A stretch of 64,000 nucleotides of DNA from assembly GCF_006442815.1 (NCBI RefSeq), contig NZ_VFVL01000030.1, forward strand, positions 1 to 64,000, given 5' to 3'. This DNA comes from Mesorhizobium sp. B2-4-3 (GTDB lineage Bacteria > Pseudomonadota > Alphaproteobacteria > Rhizobiales > Rhizobiaceae). Below are positions 3,989-61,633 of the stretch, in pieces. Position numbers and translations under genes: made by a program. The stretch's first letter is position 1, and every line of letters starts with the position of its first letter. Under the pieces are notes generated by a model. That model worked only from the letters and a program-made list of their open reading frames with translations, searched no databases and was not told the origin of the DNA.

Positions 3989-4010
3989 GCTTTCCCCTCC
4001 AAGTCTCGTG

Positions 4011-4109
4011 CGTTTCACCGTTTCACGGAAACGGCGAACCGCACTATCTACTTGTTTTTACGCAATTCCGGACGGAAAACCGCTCACACTTTTCCTGGAA
4101 TTGCTCTAG
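4011..4109 (+). repeat. A-family intergenic repeat, complete copy
   Basis: About 99 bp beginning cgtttcaccgtttcacggaa, with the internal landmark gcaattccggacgga and ending ttttcctggaattgctctag. It contains internal palindromes (gtttcaccgtttcacggaaac; caattccgg/ctggaattg). The same family recurs at least seven more times in the window. Confidence 0.9.
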
Positions 4110-29880: not shown

Positions 29881-30210
29881 ATGAAATTGATGATCCACGC
29901 GACCTTGGTCGCCGCCTCGCTGACGTTCGCCGGTTGCACCACCGACAGCATCGATAGTCGACCGCAATACGACAGGAACGGCAACCCCAATTTCGATACG
30001 CGTGGCCGTTACATCGGATGTCATGGGCTCGGATGCAAAGTCGACGACCCTGACGATGCGGATCAAAGCATCGACGACAGGCCGCAATACGACAGGAACG
30101 GCAATCCCAACTTCGATACGCGCGGCAACTATCAGGGTTGCAACGGCATCGGCTGCGAGGTCGACACGCCGGATGACGACAGGTCGTCGGACGATGACGA
30201 TTCCGGTTAA
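29881..30210 (+). CDS. Lipoprotein with two tandem Asp/Asn/Gly-rich repeats
   Basis: A 109-residue protein with a strong SD (ggagg) before the ATG, a signal peptide and the lipobox LTFAGC (Cys19), so it is predicted to be anchored to the membrane by lipid. The mature part consists of two nearly identical 36-residue units, each containing RPQYDRNGNPNFDTRG, then a G-C-x-G-I/L-G-C pair of cysteines, then an acidic D-D-P-D-D tail. The repeated D-x-N-G-N-P and acidic segments suggest calcium binding, which is inference. Function unknown. Confidence 0.8.
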   Translation: MKLMIHATLVAASLTFAGCTTDSIDSRPQYDRNGNPNFDTRGRYIGCHGLGCKVDDPDDADQSIDDRPQYDRNGNPNFDTRGNYQGCNGIGCEVDTPDDDRSSDDDDSG

Positions 30211-30241
30211 TGGACTCCGCAGCAAGAGAAGGACGCTATCC

Positions 30242-30715
30242 ATGTCTGAATTCGGCGACCTGGAGCAGTTCACCGTTTCACGGAAACGCCGAACTGTTCT
30301 AGCTGTTTGTTTTTGCGCAATTCCGGGCCTCGCCGGGCTGGAAATGACGCTGGCCCCTGCTTTCGCAGCGAATAACGCCTGTGACGGCATAAAGATCGAA
30401 GTGACGAAGGCGCGCAAACAGGAATATGCCCCTCTCGTCGCCGCGGCGGTGGGCAACAAGTTCAAGCCTGCCCAGGCGAAGTTCTTCACGATCATGGAGA
30501 GCGGCAACTGGAGCGCCGTTTACGTCTCCACGCCCGTCAGCGATGACGGCGTGATGTTCTTCCAGACGGTCAACGGGAAGAAACAGTTCCGCGACGTCTG
30601 GGGCGGTTATGCGGAGCCATCGGAAAAACCCGACCTTGTGTCTTGGGCGAAGAAGCTCGGAGCGCCGGAAAGATTGGCCAGATGTTTCGCCGAAACCGTC
30701 ACGGAACGACAGTGA
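30242..30715 (+). CDS. Small secreted protein with repeat-derived signal peptide
   Basis: A 157-residue protein, start ATG 30242 with agaagga upstream. Residues 9-29 are encoded by a copy of the A repeat: FTVSRKRRTVLAVCFCAIPG supplies the positively charged n-region and hydrophobic core of a signal peptide, continuing LAPAFA before the mature start NNACDGIKIEV. The mature domain (about 40-157) has one Cys at each end (NNAC; LARCFAETV) and a beta-rich middle (GNWSAVYVSTPVSDDGVMFF). No family recognised. It ends 17 bp inside the convergent aminotransferase gene. Confidence 0.75.
   Translation: MSEFGDLEQFTVSRKRRTVLAVCFCAIPGLAGLEMTLAPAFAANNACDGIKIEVTKARKQEYAPLVAAAVGNKFKPAQAKFFTIMESGNWSAVYVSTPVSDDGVMFFQTVNGKKQFRDVWGGYAEPSEKPDLVSWAKKLGAPERLARCFAETVTERQ
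30267..30327 (+). repeat. A-family repeat inside a coding region
   Basis: gtttcaccgtttcacggaaa, then cgccgaactgttctagctgt, then tttgcgcaattccgg match the first half of the A repeat seen at 4.0 and 42.9 kb. It is read in frame as part of the signal peptide of the gene at 30242. Confidence 0.88.
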
Positions 30716-41955: not shown

Positions 41956-42903
41956 ATGACCTCGGTGCGGACGCTGCTTGAAAAACCCTGGATCTGGTCC
42001 TTCGTCGGCGCGCTCGTCGTCTGGCTGGCAACGATTGCCTTCACCGGCGGCTACGGCGCCGGCGGCATGGTCACGGCGGCGCTGTCGCTCGCCGTCTTCA
42101 CCGTCATCGTCGGCGTCGGCCAGATGTTCGTCATCACGTTGGGACCCGGCAATGTCGACCTGTCGCTGCCGGCCAATATCGGGCTGGCCAGCGCGGTCGC
42201 CATGAAGGTGATGGGCGGCAGCGATTCCATGATCCTGGTCGGTCTGCTGGCGGCACTTGCCTGCGGCGCCGCGATCGGCGCCATCAACTACCTGCTGATC
42301 TGGGCGCTGCGCATCCCGCCGATCATCGCCACGCTGTCGGCGAGCTTCATCATCCAGTCGGTCGACATCAGCTATGGCCGCGGCCTGCAGATCAAGCCGC
42401 CGCCTGGCTTCGCCGACTTCACCAACTGGCAGGTGCTGGGCATTCCGGTGCTGGCGATGCTGACGGTGGTCTTCACGATCGGCGCCGCACTTGCGCTGCA
42501 GCGCATGATCTACGGCCGTTCGGTGCTGGCGATCGGCCAGAACATCCGCGCCGCATGGCTCGCCGGCGTCCATGTCGGCCGCATCCGTTTTCTCACCTAC
42601 ACGCTGTGCGGCGCGCTGGGCGGCATCGACGGGGCGTTGCTTGCCGGCTATTTCCGCGGCGCCAATGTCGACATCGGCAACGAATACCTGCTCGCCTCGA
42701 TAGCGGTCGTGGTCATCGGCGGCACCTCGGTCGCCGGCGGCAAGGCCAACGTGCCGGGCGTCTGGGGCGCCGGCCTGTTCCTGGTGCTCTTGCTCACCAT
42801 GCTCAACACCTTCGGCGTCAGCGCCGGCGTGCGGCTGGTGCTGACCGGACTGATCATCGTCGGCGTAATCACGGCGGCCGGCGGCGAGAAGGCGGTGCGC
42901 TAG
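41956..42903 (+). CDS. CUT2 ABC transporter permease 2
   Basis: A 315-residue RbsC-like permease, 3 bp after permease 1. Landmarks are GQMFVITLGPGNVDLSLPAN, LRIPPIIATLSASFIIQSV, and the coupling region GQNIRAAWLAGVHVGRIRF; about 8-9 transmembrane helices. The two non-identical permeases suggest a specialised sugar importer of the Rhizobiales. An A repeat begins directly after the stop codon. Confidence 0.9.
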   Translation: MTSVRTLLEKPWIWSFVGALVVWLATIAFTGGYGAGGMVTAALSLAVFTVIVGVGQMFVITLGPGNVDLSLPANIGLASAVAMKVMGGSDSMILVGLLAALACGAAIGAINYLLIWALRIPPIIATLSASFIIQSVDISYGRGLQIKPPPGFADFTNWQVLGIPVLAMLTVVFTIGAALALQRMIYGRSVLAIGQNIRAAWLAGVHVGRIRFLTYTLCGALGGIDGALLAGYFRGANVDIGNEYLLASIAVVVIGGTSVAGGKANVPGVWGAGLFLVLLLTMLNTFGVSAGVRLVLTGLIIVGVITAAGGEKAVR

Positions 42904-43029
42904 AGCGTTTCACCGTTTCACGGAAACGGCGAACCACTCTATCTCTTTGTTTTGACGCAATTCCGGACGGAAGGCTACGGCGAAACCGCCGAACCTAACC
43001 GCTCACACTTTTCCTGGGGTCGCCCTAAT
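42904..43029 (+). repeat. A-family intergenic repeat, long copy
   Basis: A long A copy: gagcgtttcaccgtttcacg, tatctctttgttttgacgca, attccggacggaaggctacg, gcgaaaccgccgaacctaac, then cgctcacacttttcctgggg. It begins directly at the permease stop. Confidence 0.9.
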
Positions 43030-45489: not shown

Positions 45490-46299
45490 TCACCAGCTTC
45501 CCGAGGAGCCGCCGCCGCCGGACGAGCCGCCGCCGCCGGAAAACCCGCCGCCGCCTCCTCCCGAGGACCAGCCACCGCCGCCCGACGACCAGCCGCCGCC
45601 ACCCGACGAGGAGGATCGCCGGCCAGGCTCGAAAGTCATGCCGAGCCAGCGATAGCGGCCGGGTCCGATCTTCTGGCCGAAGATCGGCGGCAGCACCGTC
45701 ATCGCGATGCCGCCGAAGAAGATCAGCGCCCAGATGGTGATGAAAATGGCGAAGAACAGGTCATCGGAGTTGAACGGCGCCTGCTCGTTGCGCTTGCCGC
45801 GCGCTTCGAGCTCCTCCGGATTGCCCTCCAGCACCATGATCATGTCGTCGACGGCCTTGGTGATGCCGCCGGAGAAATCGCCGGCGCGGAAGGCCGGCAC
45901 CATGTCGTTCTCGATGATCAGCTTGGTGTGCAGGTCGGTCAGCGTGCCTTCCAGCCCGTAGCCGACCTCGATGCGCATCTTGCGGTCGTTGGGCGCGACC
46001 AAGAGCAGCGCGCCGTTGTTTTCCTTGGCCTGGCCGAGCTTCCAGAAGCGGAACAGCCGGTTGGCGTAAGGCTCGATCTCCTCGCCGCCGAGGCTGGGAA
46101 TGGTGGCGACGACGATCTGGTCCGAGCCCTTGGTTTCGAAGTCGGCGAGCTTTTGCGTCAGCGCCGCGCGCGTGCCGGCATCGATGATGCCGGCATTGTC
46201 GACGACGCGGCCGGTGAGCGCGGGAAGGTCGGCGGCAAGGGCGGCGAGGGGGAGGAGGAAGAGGGCGAGCAAAACACCGCCGAAGGCGCTCCGGCACAC
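45490..46299 (-). CDS. YgcG-like TPM-domain protein with Gly/Ser-rich tail
   Basis: A 269-residue protein if started at GTG 46299. A signal-like hydrophobic start (FGGVLLALFLLPLAALAADL) leads to the TPM domain (ALTGRVVDNAGIIDAGTRAAL...TIPSLGGEEIEPYA), one transmembrane helix about 195-218 (AIFITIWALIFFGGIAMTVL), and a Gly/Ser tail (SSSSGGGGWSSGGGG repeats). The start is uncertain: an E repeat lies at 46297-46455, and GTG 46299 with the G-rich SD-like agaggggg both fall in the repeat. No other in-frame ATG precedes the hydrophobic start within the gene body. Confidence 0.8.
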   Translation of the reverse strand: MCRSAFGGVLLALFLLPLAALAADLPALTGRVVDNAGIIDAGTRAALTQKLADFETKGSDQIVVATIPSLGGEEIEPYANRLFRFWKLGQAKENNGALLLVAPNDRKMRIEVGYGLEGTLTDLHTKLIIENDMVPAFRAGDFSGGITKAVDDMIMVLEGNPEELEARGKRNEQAPFNSDDLFFAIFITIWALIFFGGIAMTVLPPIFGQKIGPGRYRWLGMTFEPGRRSSSSGGGGWSSGGGGWSSGGGGGGFSGGGGSSGGGGSSGSW

Positions 46300-46455
46300 C
46301 CCCCTCTGGCCTGCCGGCCATCTCCCCCGCAAGGGGGGAGATTGACAGCTTCGTCGCCGGCTTTCTCTTTCAGAGGCTGAAAGTTGGCGAAAGCGCGGAT
46401 GACGGCTGATCTCCCCCCTTGCGGGGGAGATGTCCGGCAGGACAGAGGGGGGTGT
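46297..46455. repeat. E-family palindromic repeat (complete)
   Basis: Left arm cacccccctctggcctgccg...gcaaggggggagatt (46297-46342) and right arm gatctcccccctt...gtccggcaggacagaggggg (46408-46455) are reverse complements around a middle containing ggcgaaagc. It lies between lemA and the YgcG-like gene; matches E3 at 61.45 kb. Confidence 0.9.
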
Positions 46456-46502
46456 GAAGGAACTCAAGGCCTGCAAGCTCGATTAAATTTCAGCCGAGGC
46501 TC

Positions 46503-50943: not shown

Positions 50944-52998
50944 ATGTCATCTTCAAAAACCGTCGATCTCGCCGCCCATCCGCTGACCGTCTGGCAGGGG
51001 CCGCTCGGCCTGCCGGATTTCTCGCGCATCAGCGACAATGATTTCGGGCCTGTCTTCGATGCGGCGCTCGAGGCGCACCAGGCCGAGATCGACGCGATCG
51101 CCGGCAACAGCGAGACGCCGACCGTCGAGAACACGCTGGCAGCGCTCGAACTCGCGGGTGAGGCGCTCGACCATGTATCGTCAATCTTCTGGTGCCGCGC
51201 CGGCGCCCACACCAACGACACGATCCAGGCGATGGAGCGCGAGGTTTCGCCAAAGATGTCGCGACATTTCTCGGCGATCTCGATGAACGAAAAACTGTTT
51301 GCCCGCATCGACGACCTCTACCAGCGGCGCGACAGCCTGAAGCTCGATGCCGAAACGCTGCGCGTGCTGGAAAAGACCTGGAAAGGCTTTGTCCGGTCGG
51401 GCGCCAAGCTCGACGCCGAAGGCAAGAAACGGCTCGCGGCCATCAATGAGGAGCTTTCCTCGCTCGGCACCAAATTCGGCCAGAACGTGCTGGCCGACGA
51501 GCGCGACTGGGCTTTGTTCCTCGATGAAGCCGATCTCGCCGGCCTGCCCGATTTCCTGAAGAGCGCCATGGCCGAAGCGGCCGAGATCCGCGGCCAGAAG
51601 GGCCGCTATGCGGTGACGTTGTCGCGCTCGATCTACGAGCCGTTCTCGACCTTTTCCGAGCGCCGCGACCTGCGCGAGATCGCTTTTCGCGCCTTCATCA
51701 TGCGCGGCCAGAATGGCGGCGCCACCGACAATACGGATGTGGTGCGCGACATGCTGAAGCTGCGCGCCGAGAAGGCCAAGCTGCTCGGCTACGGCTCCTT
51801 CGCGGCGCTCAAGCTCGACGACACGATGGCAAAGACGCCGAAGGCCGTGCACGCGCTGCTCGATCCGGTCTGGGAAAAGGCGCTGGAGAAAGCGGCGGCT
51901 GACCAGAAGGAGCTGGAGCGGCTGGCCGCGGAAGCCGGCAGCAACGAAAAATTCGCGGCCTGGGATTGGCGCTTCTACCAGGAGAAGCTGCGCGCCGAGA
52001 AATTCGCCTTCGACGAGGCGGAGCTGAAGCCTTACCTGCAGCTCGAACGCGTCATCGAAGCCTGCTTCGACGTCGCCACGAGATTGTTCGGCATCACATT
52101 CGAGGAGAAGAAGGGCATCGCCGCCTGGCATCCCGACGCGCGAGTTTTCGTGGTCAAGAATGCCGACGGCAGCGAGCGCGGCCTGTTCCTGGCCGACTAT
52201 TTCGCGCGGCCCTCAAAGCGCTCCGGCGCCTGGATGAGCGCGCTTCGGTCCGGTCACAAGCTCGGCGACGGTGCCCAGCCAGTGATCTACAACATCATGA
52301 ATTTCGCCAAGCCGCCGGCCGGCGAGGCAGCGCTTCTGTCGGTCGATGAGGCCAAGACGCTGTTCCACGAGTTCGGTCATGCGCTGCACGGCATGCTGAC
52401 CGAGGTGACCTGGCCGTCGGTCTCCGGCACATCGGTCAGCCGCGATTTCGTCGAGCTGCCCTCGCAGCTCTACGAGCATTGGCTGACGGTGCCGGCGGTG
52501 CTGGAAAAGCATGCGCTGCATGTCAAGACAGGCAAGCCGATGCCGAAGGCGCTGCTCGACAAGATGCTCGCCGCCCGCACCTTCGGCGCCGGCTTCGCGA
52601 CCGTCGAGTTCACCGCCTCGGCGCTGATCGACATGGCTTATCACGCGCGATCCGACGCGCCCGCCGAACCGCTTCGCTACGAGGCAGAGACGCTCGAAAA
52701 GCTGCATATGCCCGACACGATCGCGATGCGTCACCGCACCCCGCATTTCGGCCATGTCTTCGCCGGCGACGGCTATTCAGCCGGCTACTATTCCTACATG
52801 TGGTCGGAAGTGCTCGACGCCGATGCCTTCTCGGCTTTCGAGGAGACGGGCGATCCCTTCAACCCGGCGCTCGCCGAGCGGCTGCGGAAGAACATCTATG
52901 CCGCGGGTGGGTCCAAGGATCCGGAGGAGCTCTACACGGCGTTTCGGGGCAAGATGCCCTCGCCGGAAGCGATGATGGCGAAGCGCGGGCTGGTGTGA
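50944..52998 (+). CDS. M3-family oligopeptidase (Dcp/OpdA type)
   Basis: A 684-residue cytosolic zinc metallopeptidase starting at ATG 50944 (MSSSKTVDLAAHPLTVWQGP). The zinc motif H-E-x2-H is in AKTLFHEFGHALHGMLTE, with the third ligand Glu in VELPSQLYEHW, and GYSAGYYSYMWSEVLDADAF near the end. M3 enzymes trim peptides and cleaved signal peptides. The frame is open to 50839, but that part is a repeat. Ends in an E repeat. Confidence 0.93.
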   Translation: MSSSKTVDLAAHPLTVWQGPLGLPDFSRISDNDFGPVFDAALEAHQAEIDAIAGNSETPTVENTLAALELAGEALDHVSSIFWCRAGAHTNDTIQAMEREVSPKMSRHFSAISMNEKLFARIDDLYQRRDSLKLDAETLRVLEKTWKGFVRSGAKLDAEGKKRLAAINEELSSLGTKFGQNVLADERDWALFLDEADLAGLPDFLKSAMAEAAEIRGQKGRYAVTLSRSIYEPFSTFSERRDLREIAFRAFIMRGQNGGATDNTDVVRDMLKLRAEKAKLLGYGSFAALKLDDTMAKTPKAVHALLDPVWEKALEKAAADQKELERLAAEAGSNEKFAAWDWRFYQEKLRAEKFAFDEAELKPYLQLERVIEACFDVATRLFGITFEEKKGIAAWHPDARVFVVKNADGSERGLFLADYFARPSKRSGAWMSALRSGHKLGDGAQPVIYNIMNFAKPPAGEAALLSVDEAKTLFHEFGHALHGMLTEVTWPSVSGTSVSRDFVELPSQLYEHWLTVPAVLEKHALHVKTGKPMPKALLDKMLAARTFGAGFATVEFTASALIDMAYHARSDAPAEPLRYEAETLEKLHMPDTIAMRHRTPHFGHVFAGDGYSAGYYSYMWSEVLDADAFSAFEETGDPFNPALAERLRKNIYAAGGSKDPEELYTAFRGKMPSPEAMMAKRGLV

Positions 52999-53002
52999 TT
53001 GG

Positions 53003-53061
53003 CTAATCTCCCCCCTCGTGGGGGAGATGGCCGGCAGGCCAGAGGGGGGCGCTGTCCCGGC
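53003..53061. repeat. E-family half element, left side of the GIY-YIG locus
   Basis: aatctcccccctcgtggggg, then gatggccggcaggccagagg, then ggggcgctgtcccgg; the reverse complement of 53592-53650. Its orientation relative to the partner is opposite to that in the complete E elements at 46.30 and 61.45 kb. Confidence 0.88.
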
Positions 53062-53072
53062 AGCCCATCCTT

Positions 53073-53577
53073 CGTCATTCCAGGGCGGAGCAAGGAGCGA
53101 AGCGACGCGCGCAGACCCCAGAATCCATGCCGTGACGGTTGAGCGCCGCCACGGTCCAGAACGCTCACCAGCCGATCCCGCGAAAGAACTCGAACCATTC
53201 CGGGTTGCTCTTCTCGATCAATTCCACCTTCCATTGGCGCGGCCAGCGCTTCAATGATGTCTCACGCTGGATGGCATCGGTGATGTCGAAATGCTCTTCG
53301 TACCAGACGAGGCGCTGCACGCCGTAACGGCTGGTGAAGGTGGAGCCCTGGCCGGTCTTGTGCTCGGGCATCCGGCGAGCAAGGTCGTTGGTGACACCAA
53401 TAGATCGTGCCGCCTTTCTGGCTTGCGGTCATGTAGACGTAGCCTGTCATGCTTCGATCTTACCTGGCGCCATCGCCAACGGCTATTCTGGGCAGTTGCA
53501 TTCTATGGTCAATGTCACGGCATGGATTCTAGGGTCTGCGCGCGTCGCTTCGCTCCTTGCTCCGCCCTAGAATGACG
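53073..53577. mobile_element. B-family palindrome carrying a GIY-YIG gene
   Basis: The left arm (53073-53163: cgtcattccagggcggagca...atccatgccgtgacg...cgccgccacggtccagaac) and right arm (about 53495-53577: cagttgcattctatggtcaa...cacggcatggattctagg...ctccgccctagaatgacg) are the same sequences that form the closed hairpins at 43.05 and 50.57 kb. Between them, in place of the roughly 12-nt centre, is a minus-strand GIY-YIG gene. No transposase is present. Confidence 0.82.
53165..53450 (-). pseudogene. Frameshifted GIY-YIG endonuclease
   Basis: Read from ATG 53450: MTGYVYMTASQKGGTIYW, then out of frame; read in a second frame: IGVTNDLARRMPEHKTG then QGSTFTSRYGVQRLVWYEEH to 53165 (ending FRGIGW). 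The GIY-YIG motif is split as G-T-I-Y|(I)G-V-T-N. At about 53400 the sequence reads caatagatc where the family needs caatatagatc, a 2-base deletion. The intact protein would be about 95 residues. Cargo of the B element. Confidence 0.85.
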
Positions 53578-55120
53578 AAGGCCGGGTCGGCGGGACAGCG
53601 CCCCCCTCTGCCCTGCCGGGCATCTCCCCCACAAGGGGGGAGATTGGCAGTTTCCACGGATCCGCCACCCTCGGCCAGATCAGCCTCGTCAGTTTCCTGT
53701 AATCCGTCTTCGCCGGATTGCTCGGATAGGAACTCGGCGCCGCGACGTAGATGATCTCGGCGGCGATCGGCGCGAAGCCGGCGTAGAAGTGGTTGGTCGA
53801 CTTGATCAGCAGAATATCTTTCGCCATCGGATCGATGCCGATGTTGGAGAAGACATCCGGCTCGAAGGTCTGGGTGCGGTTGGTGTTGAGGATAACGTCG
53901 ACCTCGGTGCCTTCGATGCGCACCACCGCCGAAGGTCCCAGCGTCACGCGGCTCGGGCCGAAGCTCTGCCAGCCTTCATTGGTGGTCTTCAGCACCGTGA
54001 CGCGGGCGTCGATCGGCTCGCCGGCCTGAGGGCCGGCCTTGCCGCCGAAGCGCAGGTCGATGACGGCGCCTTCGCCGGCCGCGTGGCAGAAGGTCACCGC
54101 GATCGGATCCCAGATCGTCGCCACGCCGACCTTGTGTACGCCGCGCGTCAGCAGCTCGCGCAGCACGATGGTGCCGTCGCCCGGCACGCCGCCGCCCGGA
54201 TTGTCCCAGATGTCGGCGATCACGACCGGCTTGTCCTGGCGCTCGGCGCGCACAGCAAGCGCCTGCTCGATGCCGACCGAGGCGGAAAGCATCGTCATCG
54301 CCGTCTTTTCACGCAAGGCGTAGAGTTCGCGCCCCAGCGTTTCTGCGAGCTTGTCGCCCTTTTCCTTGTCGTCGTCGGTGACGACCAGGATGCGCGTTCC
54401 CATCTCCGGCACGTCGGCGGCCATGAAGCCGTGGACGACCGAGACCGACAGCACGCCGTCCTTGCCATGCAGCGCCTTGATCCTGTCGACGAAGGAGCGC
54501 ATCGGCTCGCGGCTGGTCGGCAGCACCTGGATCATACGGCAGTCGAAGGTCGAGATCACCGGCTTGATCTCGCCGCGCGCCGCGGCAATGCCGAGCTCGA
54601 CGACGTGCTCGCCGCGCTCGTAGAAATCGGTGTGCGGGAATTCGAGGAAATAGGCCATGACATCGCAGGCCGCGACGCGTTTCGGCGTCAGGTGGCTGTG
54701 CGGATCGAACTCGCAGGCGATCACCACCTTTGGACCGACGATGGCGCGCACGCGTTCCAGCAGATCGCCTTCACAGTCGTCATAGCCTTGCGCGATCATG
54801 GCGCCATGCAGGCCGAGGATCACCGCATCGACCGGCAGCGCGGCCTTGAGCTGATCGAGGATCTCGTCGCGCAGCGCCTCATAGGTCTGCCGCTGCACGA
54901 GGCCGCCGGGCTCCGCCCAGGTGGCGGTGCCTTCGATGACCGTCAACCCTTCCTTGGCCGCGCGTTTGCGCAAAGCCACGATCGGCGAGGAGCAAAGCGT
55001 CGGCGTCTCCGGGTGCTTGCCCGGACCGGCATAGAAGGCCATCTCGAACGAGGCCCGGTCGGTCGGCACCGGCGAGAAGGTGTTGGTTTCCGTCGCCAGC
55101 GAGGCGGTGAAGATGCGCAT
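53567..55120 (-). CDS. M81 (MlrC/microcystinase-C-like) metallopeptidase
   Basis: A 517-residue protein starting at ATG 55120 (MRIFTASLATETNTFSP), with ggag upstream. The M81 N-terminal zinc region appears as ATETNTFSP and VILGLHGAMIAQGYDDCEGD; the C-terminal part has ADIWDNPGGGVPGDGTIVLR. Family members degrade linear microcystin or cleave related amides. The last 27 residues ([19 protein letters not shown]...PSSF) are encoded by an E repeat and the B arm, and the stop codon lies in the B arm; the natural end was probably near VADPWK. It is the last gene of the same-strand CUT1 transporter run. Confidence 0.88.
   Translation of the reverse strand: MRIFTASLATETNTFSPVPTDRASFEMAFYAGPGKHPETPTLCSSPIVALRKRAAKEGLTVIEGTATWAEPGGLVQRQTYEALRDEILDQLKAALPVDAVILGLHGAMIAQGYDDCEGDLLERVRAIVGPKVVIACEFDPHSHLTPKRVAACDVMAYFLEFPHTDFYERGEHVVELGIAAARGEIKPVISTFDCRMIQVLPTSREPMRSFVDRIKALHGKDGVLSVSVVHGFMAADVPEMGTRILVVTDDDKEKGDKLAETLGRELYALREKTAMTMLSASVGIEQALAVRAERQDKPVVIADIWDNPGGGVPGDGTIVLRELLTRGVHKVGVATIWDPIAVTFCHAAGEGAVIDLRFGGKAGPQAGEPIDARVTVLKTTNEGWQSFGPSRVTLGPSAVVRIEGTEVDVILNTNRTQTFEPDVFSNIGIDPMAKDILLIKSTNHFYAGFAPIAAEIIYVAAPSSYPSNPAKTDYRKLTRLIWPRVADPWKLPISPLVGEMPGRAEGGAVPPTRPSSF
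53592..53650. repeat. E-family half element, right side of the GIY-YIG locus
   Basis: gggacagcgcccccctctgc, cctgccgggcatctccccca, then caaggggggagattggcag; the reverse complement of 53003-53061. It encodes part of the C-terminal tail of the M81 gene on the minus strand. Confidence 0.88.
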
Positions 55121-61412: not shown

Positions 61413-61453
61413 GCGGTTGCAGCGGCTTGCGCCGCCGAAGTTGGCGATCCTTC

Positions 61454-61613
61454 GCGCCCCCCTCTGGCCTGCCGGCGATCTCCCCCACGAGGGGGGAGAT
61501 CGGCAGTTCCGGCGCCCCGCTCACCCTAGTACGTTGGAGATTGGCGAAAGCCGCCGCGACATCTGATCTCCCCCCTTGTGGGGGAGATGTCCGGCAGGAC
61601 AGAGGGGGGCGCT
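61454..61613. repeat. E-family palindromic repeat (complete)
   Basis: gcgcccccctctggcctgcc...acgaggggggagat and gatctcccccc...gtccggcaggacagaggggg are the arms, with the middle ggcgaaagcc in common with the E element at 46.30 kb. It lies between RpiR and the DUF167 gene and may end transcription of both. Confidence 0.9.
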
Positions 61614-61633
61614 GTCCCGCCAACATTTCAAAT

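Follow-up and report, generated by a model that had tools for sequence, protein, structure and literature searches.

Within a stretch of 64,000 nucleotides (nt) from Mesorhizobium sp. B2-4-3 (contig NZ_VFVL01000030.1; hereafter, the window), a gene for a secreted protein (30242..30715, + strand) carries, in the part that encodes its signal peptide, a copy of a short repeat, which raises the question of whether the repeat gave the protein its export signal. An earlier note on the window had proposed that it did. Comparison with repeat-free relatives makes a different history highly probable: a palindromic, probably mobile repeat would have inserted in frame into the signal of a protein that was already exported and would later have been trimmed, with the protein likely still exported through the general secretory (Sec) pathway.

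The gene is an open reading frame (ORF) of 157 codons plus a stop, begins with the ATG at 30242 and belongs to no Pfam or NCBIfam family. Its translated N-terminus is MSEFGDLEQFTVSRKRRTVLAVCFCAIPGLAGLEMTLAPAFA, followed by ANNACDG; the cleavage site between the two, placed by eye, delimits a signal peptide of 42 residues. A DNA search of the strain's own 6.2-megabase genome with positions 30240-30360 yielded 42 matches, including the query itself and two weak matches on the opposite strand. The best other copy is 88% identical over 67 base pairs (bp; window positions 30260-30326, E = 9.7 × 10−18), a match far beyond chance. The 105-bp consensus of the repeat, which was typed from copies in the window, has at least 40 strong copies in the genome, dispersed throughout it; in many of them, the segment 2-43 aligns with its own reverse complement, giving the repeat an inverted-repeat structure. 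In the frame of the window gene, the complete consensus reads LERFTVSRKRRTALALCFYAIPDGKPLTLFLELL and ends in TAG. The copy in the gene (30260..30326, +) is truncated at its 3' end, retaining 67 of about 105 bp, and reads LEQFTVSRKRRTVLAVCFCAIP in frame. The repeat copy proposed in the earlier note is therefore real, but it spans residues 7-28 and not 9-29.

To trace the N-terminus, we relied on homologues from two overlapping collections. In the genus search, 107 of 146 genomes matched at E = 0.001, mostly to the repeat alone, and 11 genomes besides the window's own showed a strong match to the protein itself. The second collection contributed 13 named loci (9 Mesorhizobium, 2 Chelativorans, 1 Nitratireductor and 1 Phyllobacterium). 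Of the resulting 24 homologue rows, 22 (17 distinct) have an in-frame start codon, and all 22 begin with a repeat-free N-terminus that contains a hydrophobic segment, typically 31 residues long (for example, MSELNGLIRRRAKIVMVGLAGLGMALTSAFA). The other two, L015 and L045, which are identical there, have an extra base in the signal region and no in-frame start, through either a sequencing error or a loss of the signal. The closest N-terminus, MSEFGDLVRRHAKTVMIGLAGL, is that of L014, and in the alignment, with boundaries drawn by eye, 63 nt of repeat in the window gene (30263..30325) take the place of 30 nt in L014, which makes the gene 33 nt longer there. On the upstream side, MSEFGDL (30242..30262), the start of the charged n-region, is common to L014 and similar in other homologues. 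Downstream, GLAGLEMTLAPAFA (30326..30367), comprising the remainder of the hydrophobic h-region and the c-region with AFA before the likely cleavage site, also aligns with the homologues. By this alignment, what is ancestral is the start with MSEFGDL and the stretch GLAGL...AFA, whereas SRKRR (the charge of the n-region) and TVLAVCFCAIP (the first half of the h-region) are encoded by the repeat, as the earlier note had held for the n- and h-regions. Because all 22 other rows with a start have repeat-free hydrophobic N-termini, the export signal predates the repeat, and, judged from these N-termini, the repeat rewrote an existing export signal and did not create one. Among the homologues found, the repeat-bearing version occurs in the window genome only, so the suspicion that this N-terminus is strain-specific was borne out; the counter-evidence named in the note, the same N-terminus in genomes lacking the repeat, was found in part, in that these relatives do have an export signal, but one of different sequence. 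Translation from a start downstream of the repeat is unlikely, because MSEFGDL and the leader resemble those of the repeat-free homologues and the next ATG, at Met35, would leave only 8 residues of the signal. The likely ribosome-binding site, GAGAAGGA (30226..30233, +), was read from the sequence ahead of the ATG, and most homologues have purine-rich leaders.

The part of the protein that follows the signal (30368..30712, about 115 residues) is a conserved mature domain with one confidently predicted alpha/beta fold. The AlphaFold predicted local distance difference test (pLDDT) score is 93-97 for residues 51-150 and below 50 for nearly all of residues 1-43. The pairwise ratio of non-synonymous to synonymous substitution rates (dN/dS) is 0.08-0.25 against 13 of the 14 homologues compared, the 14th being saturated, and the codon score of the mature part is normal (0.21 vs. 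a window mean of 0.20). The mature domain is under long-term constraint, and the earlier view of it as a real folded protein holds. Searches of Pfam, NCBIfam, Rfam and PDB folds gave the protein no name; in the PDB fold search there was no match at E = 0.001, the best having E = 0.19.

A search of 394 family genomes with the 42-residue signal, together with a second look at the loci, brought up an in-frame copy in a large membrane protein. Each gene of this kind was then searched in 144 genomes of the genus, and its N-termini were read. The gene of case B, a 7TMR-DISM/PAS protein (L199-L202), is present in 142 of the 144 genomes; among 30 loci read, the insert occurs in G043, G059, G028 and G093, and 26 sites are empty, including that of the close relative G141. 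The gene of case C, a phytase-like esterase (L289; 140 genomes), has the insert in G129 and 24 empty sites among 25 loci read, one of them in the close relative G046. Case D (L364, G036) is a separate 42-codon insert in the same gene as C, in the other phase and at a nearby site. In case E, an MTRSL protein (L314, L365; 141 genomes), the 25 loci read comprise a 34-codon insert in G123, a 42-codon variant at the same codon in G007 and 23 empty sites. Case F, a MauG-type lipoprotein (L339 in the window's own genome, and L340; gene in 136 genomes), has the insert in the window's own genome and in G015, with 23 of 25 loci empty, and case G, a caspase-like protein (L384), has it in G028, with 19 of 20 loci empty and an in-frame ATG just past the element that is a second possible start. 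In case H (L404, G028), by eye a solute-binding-like protein, the gene is otherwise present only in G093 among the 144 genomes, and no empty site was found among them. Pfam supplied the names in cases B, C, F and G and gave no match for E or H. In cases B, C, E, F and G, the insert separates the start region from the h-region, and each clean insert adds exactly 34 codons. Besides the window gene, six genes of the genus thus carry a member of the repeat family in frame within the signal peptide, and repeat-free relatives exist for five of them. The insert of case B has 4 synonymous and 3 non-synonymous changes (one-sided p = 0.06), too few to rely on.

Two side observations concern the genomes involved. 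The locus of case H in G093 (L405), compared with that in G028, keeps only the 3' part of the element, as if it had been trimmed after insertion; if L405 is such a relic, trimming of the element does happen. G028, G059 and G093 have 315-406 repeat candidates at first look, 2-3 times as many as the window genome (138), which are burst-like copy numbers.

The sequence at the insertion sites suggests how the repeat could enter coding frames. CTAG stands exactly at the junction in two of the six printed empty sites (L290 for case C and L315 for case E), and filled copies have CTAG-like element ends on both sides. CTAG itself is rare in the window (34 observed vs. 75.9 expected from trinucleotides). 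In the window's own genome, 9 of 30 copies (L052-L081) are in contact with the stop codon of an open frame at least 100 codons long, compared to 2.6% per copy in a control of 3000 random positions, and in 7 of these 9 the stop is a TAG one base inside the element end; CTAG itself contains a TAG stop. The description of the repeat as intergenic elsewhere is accordingly not exact, since copies touch stop codons and some lie inside other genes. Annotated plasmid hits that had a gene listed under the match were opened in seven cases (H4, H7, H10, H17, H33, H42 and H59; L082-L088), and in all seven the overlap is 3-4 nt, at the stop end of the gene only, which ruled them out as repeats within genes. 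The net length of the element is divisible by three in 57 of the 85 full copies with both ends. Of these 57, 48 can be read through in one coding phase, 36 in the second and 31 in both, compared to 29%, 32% and 6%, respectively, in shuffled-sequence controls; when the element is reversed, the two phases can be read through in 14 and 11 copies. The copies are related and were partly fetched via these frames, so that these counts describe the element and do not prove selection for readability.

Taken together, these findings suggest that a palindromic, probably mobile and non-autonomous repeat, CTAG-ended, with a net length of 102 bp in most full copies and similar to the Rhizobium-specific intergenic mosaic elements (RIMEs), would enter signal-peptide regions in frame. 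Such insertion would be possible because CTAG-like sites are used, a multiple of three bases is usually added and two of the three phases are readable. Signal peptides would tolerate the repeat because they mainly need charge and hydrophobicity and are then removed, and export signals seem able to accommodate its arrival. In the window gene, the copy would have been trimmed after insertion, with SRKRR and TVLAVCFCAIP taking over from the charged residues of the earlier n-region and the initial half of the earlier h-region, and with the original start (MSEFGDL) and end (GLAGL...AFA) retained; the protein is most likely still exported through Sec, and its signal would still be cleaved. We regard as tentative, and somewhat doubtful, the broader proposal of a coding-compatible mobile element with CTAG-like targets that has stop codons and signal peptides as safe harbours and that repeatedly rewrites export signals, perhaps changing the route or efficiency of export.

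Several observations weigh against insertion into a tolerant, still functional export signal or narrow what can be claimed for it. Cases C, E, G and H were all found with a query that included a signal-peptide h-region, and D was found via C; B, from a family-search match on the repeat part only, and F, from a DNA search of the own genome, were reached by other routes. Part of the search was thus biased towards signal peptides, and what we claim is recurrence and not a measured preference. A second repeat copy at L106 (G099:C355) likely lies in frame inside a phosphopantetheinyl-transferase-like domain, the one interior candidate among the 534 copy-frames of the loci collected up to that point; if so, signal peptides are not the sole coding site of the repeat. 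The remaining four printed empty sites have CTTG (L203), CTGG (L316), CATG (L362) and ATTG (L385) at the junction. Finally, the private changes on the branch of the window gene are 3 synonymous and 7 non-synonymous, indistinguishable from the neutral expectation, and constraint on the mature domain after the insertion is therefore not demonstrated.

Other readings of the window signal are less probable. The repeat alone reads, in the window frame, as a charged stretch followed by a hydrophobic run, as would be needed if a protein without an export signal had acquired one from it; such de novo recruitment is nevertheless extremely improbable and largely refuted, given the hydrophobic N-termini of all repeat-free rows with a start and the ancestral start and c-region of the window signal itself. 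A damaged signal, with the gene heading for loss or its product staying in the cytoplasm, could be suspected from the absence of constraint in the window-private changes and from an allele present in only one of the genomes searched. We consider it very unlikely, since the frame is intact, the start is conserved and the codon score is normal, private-change counts are similarly noisy in the other lineages compared, and n-, h- and c-region features are all retained: judged by rule, the Sec features are present, with the SRKRR n-region, TVLAVCFCAIPGLAGL as h-region and AFA supplying the small residues at −3 and −1. The h-region has a Kyte-Doolittle hydrophobicity of 2.74 (10 residues), above 20 of the 22 homologue rows, with 2.99 reached by L042 and its duplicate L012. 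It is also the highest value among 95 ungapped repeat copies (mean 1.72, standard deviation 0.39; 89 stop-free), a comparison that should be conservative, because many of these copies were fetched by similarity to the window peptide.

The same value bears on the possibility that RKRRTVLA turned the Sec signal into one of the twin-arginine (Tat) type. RRTVL of the window signal fits the TatP pattern RR.[FGAVML][LITMVF], as do 71 of the 89 stop-free repeat copies in the frame of the window gene, whereas the pattern is found in none of the 22 other homologue rows with the starts chosen. Tat signals, however, tend to be less hydrophobic than Sec signals, and at 2.74 the window h-region is not of lower hydrophobicity; the high value favours Sec. 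Furthermore, homologue L051 would fit the pattern if the upstream GTG were its start, and the part of the TatP report that gives error rates lists 7% false positives on Gram-negative Sec signals for the pattern alone (PMC1182353). A change of route is, on this evidence, unlikely, though less so than damage to the signal. A lipobox, LAVC, in the window signal was rejected by eye under the lipobox rule.

Short repeats in coding genes and in signal peptides are known. What is new here is that a single element recurs in signal peptides within one genus, together with empty sites and a probable target. In the portion of Delihas (2007) that deals with the RU-2 (YPAL) repeat, the repeat is part of the predicted signal peptide of Yersinia YPO1552, and the signal peptides of YPO1552 homologues from other genera bear no relation to RU-2 (PMC2759123). 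The window gene resembles that case, as described there, in having a repeat within a signal peptide and homologues with repeat-unrelated signals, but RU-2 is another repeat, in another branch of the phylum, with one main signal-peptide example in that account; the Mesorhizobium repeat is one family that occurs in signal peptides encoded by seven genes within a single genus, and for most of these genes close relatives have empty sites. Rickettsia palindromic elements (RPEs), in the relevant part of their description, are 105-146 bp long and are fused in frame in conserved protein genes, where they are apparently tolerated (PMC2229807). Compared by these descriptions only, both elements are palindromic and in frame within conserved genes; the Mesorhizobium repeat, being dispersed and having repeat-free relatives, has the features of a protein-coding palindromic repeat of the RPE-like kind, whereas RPEs are specific to Rickettsia and the Mesorhizobium cases are mostly in signal peptides, one being probably within a domain. 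In the open-access literature of one library, only the RPE and Delihas work was found as precedent for repeats in genes, and no report of one element recurring in signal peptides of one genus.

RIMEs, reportedly described by Osteras et al. in 1995, are likewise short, repeated and found in rhizobia and relatives. The size of the present repeat, about 105 bp, is presumably similar to that of RIME1, the two being likened by host range and size and not by sequence. In the parts of two papers that mention them, RIMEs are treated as intergenic repeats (PMC2573895, PMC2245857). As an explanation of why a repeat regarded as intergenic sits near genes, we offer the fit of CTAG ends to stop codons. Sister species with and without the 34-residue insert are natural pairs for testing the rebuilding of signal peptides, and such filled and empty pairs also allow one to ask whether a mobile repeat alters the destination of a protein.

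More widely, the repeat peptide occurs in 375 plasmid records, of which 235 are from Rhizobium and 114 from Sinorhizobium, and repeat matches were found in 17 of the 109 genera of the family sample. An earlier set of 60 in-frame copies of the genus, picked by open-frame length, was rejected, as these looked like shadow frames on the antisense strand, copies between genes or genes whose start lies past the repeat. A first coding model assigned the wrong strand (sense vs. antisense) to 15 of 41 training frames, and the retrained model to 6 of 51, whereupon the signal-peptide cases stood out. The latter flagged 27 frames, among them 8 rows with signal-peptide cases and the single interior candidate; the others, apart from a few such as L031, L115, L126, L132 and L165, were judged by eye to be mostly genes that begin after the repeat.

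Within the window, two further long copies of the repeat lie at 4005..4109 (+; window and consensus search) and at 42900..43027 (+; window search), the first 4 nt of the latter overlapping the end of the ORF at 41956-42903. Immediately upstream of the secreted-protein gene, as read in the window, is an ORF for a lipoprotein-like protein of 109 residues (29881..30210, +) with a doubled DRPQYDRNGNPNFDTRG unit (120 nt). In 18 of 22 loci, duplicates among them, a similar ORF directly precedes the homologue, and at L049 and L051 a partial match to it lies about 1 kilobase downstream instead. A separate repeat family with long inverted pairs (CCCCCCTCTGGCCTGCCGG...GGGGGAGAT) occupies 46285-46461, 52981-53660 and 61443-61624.
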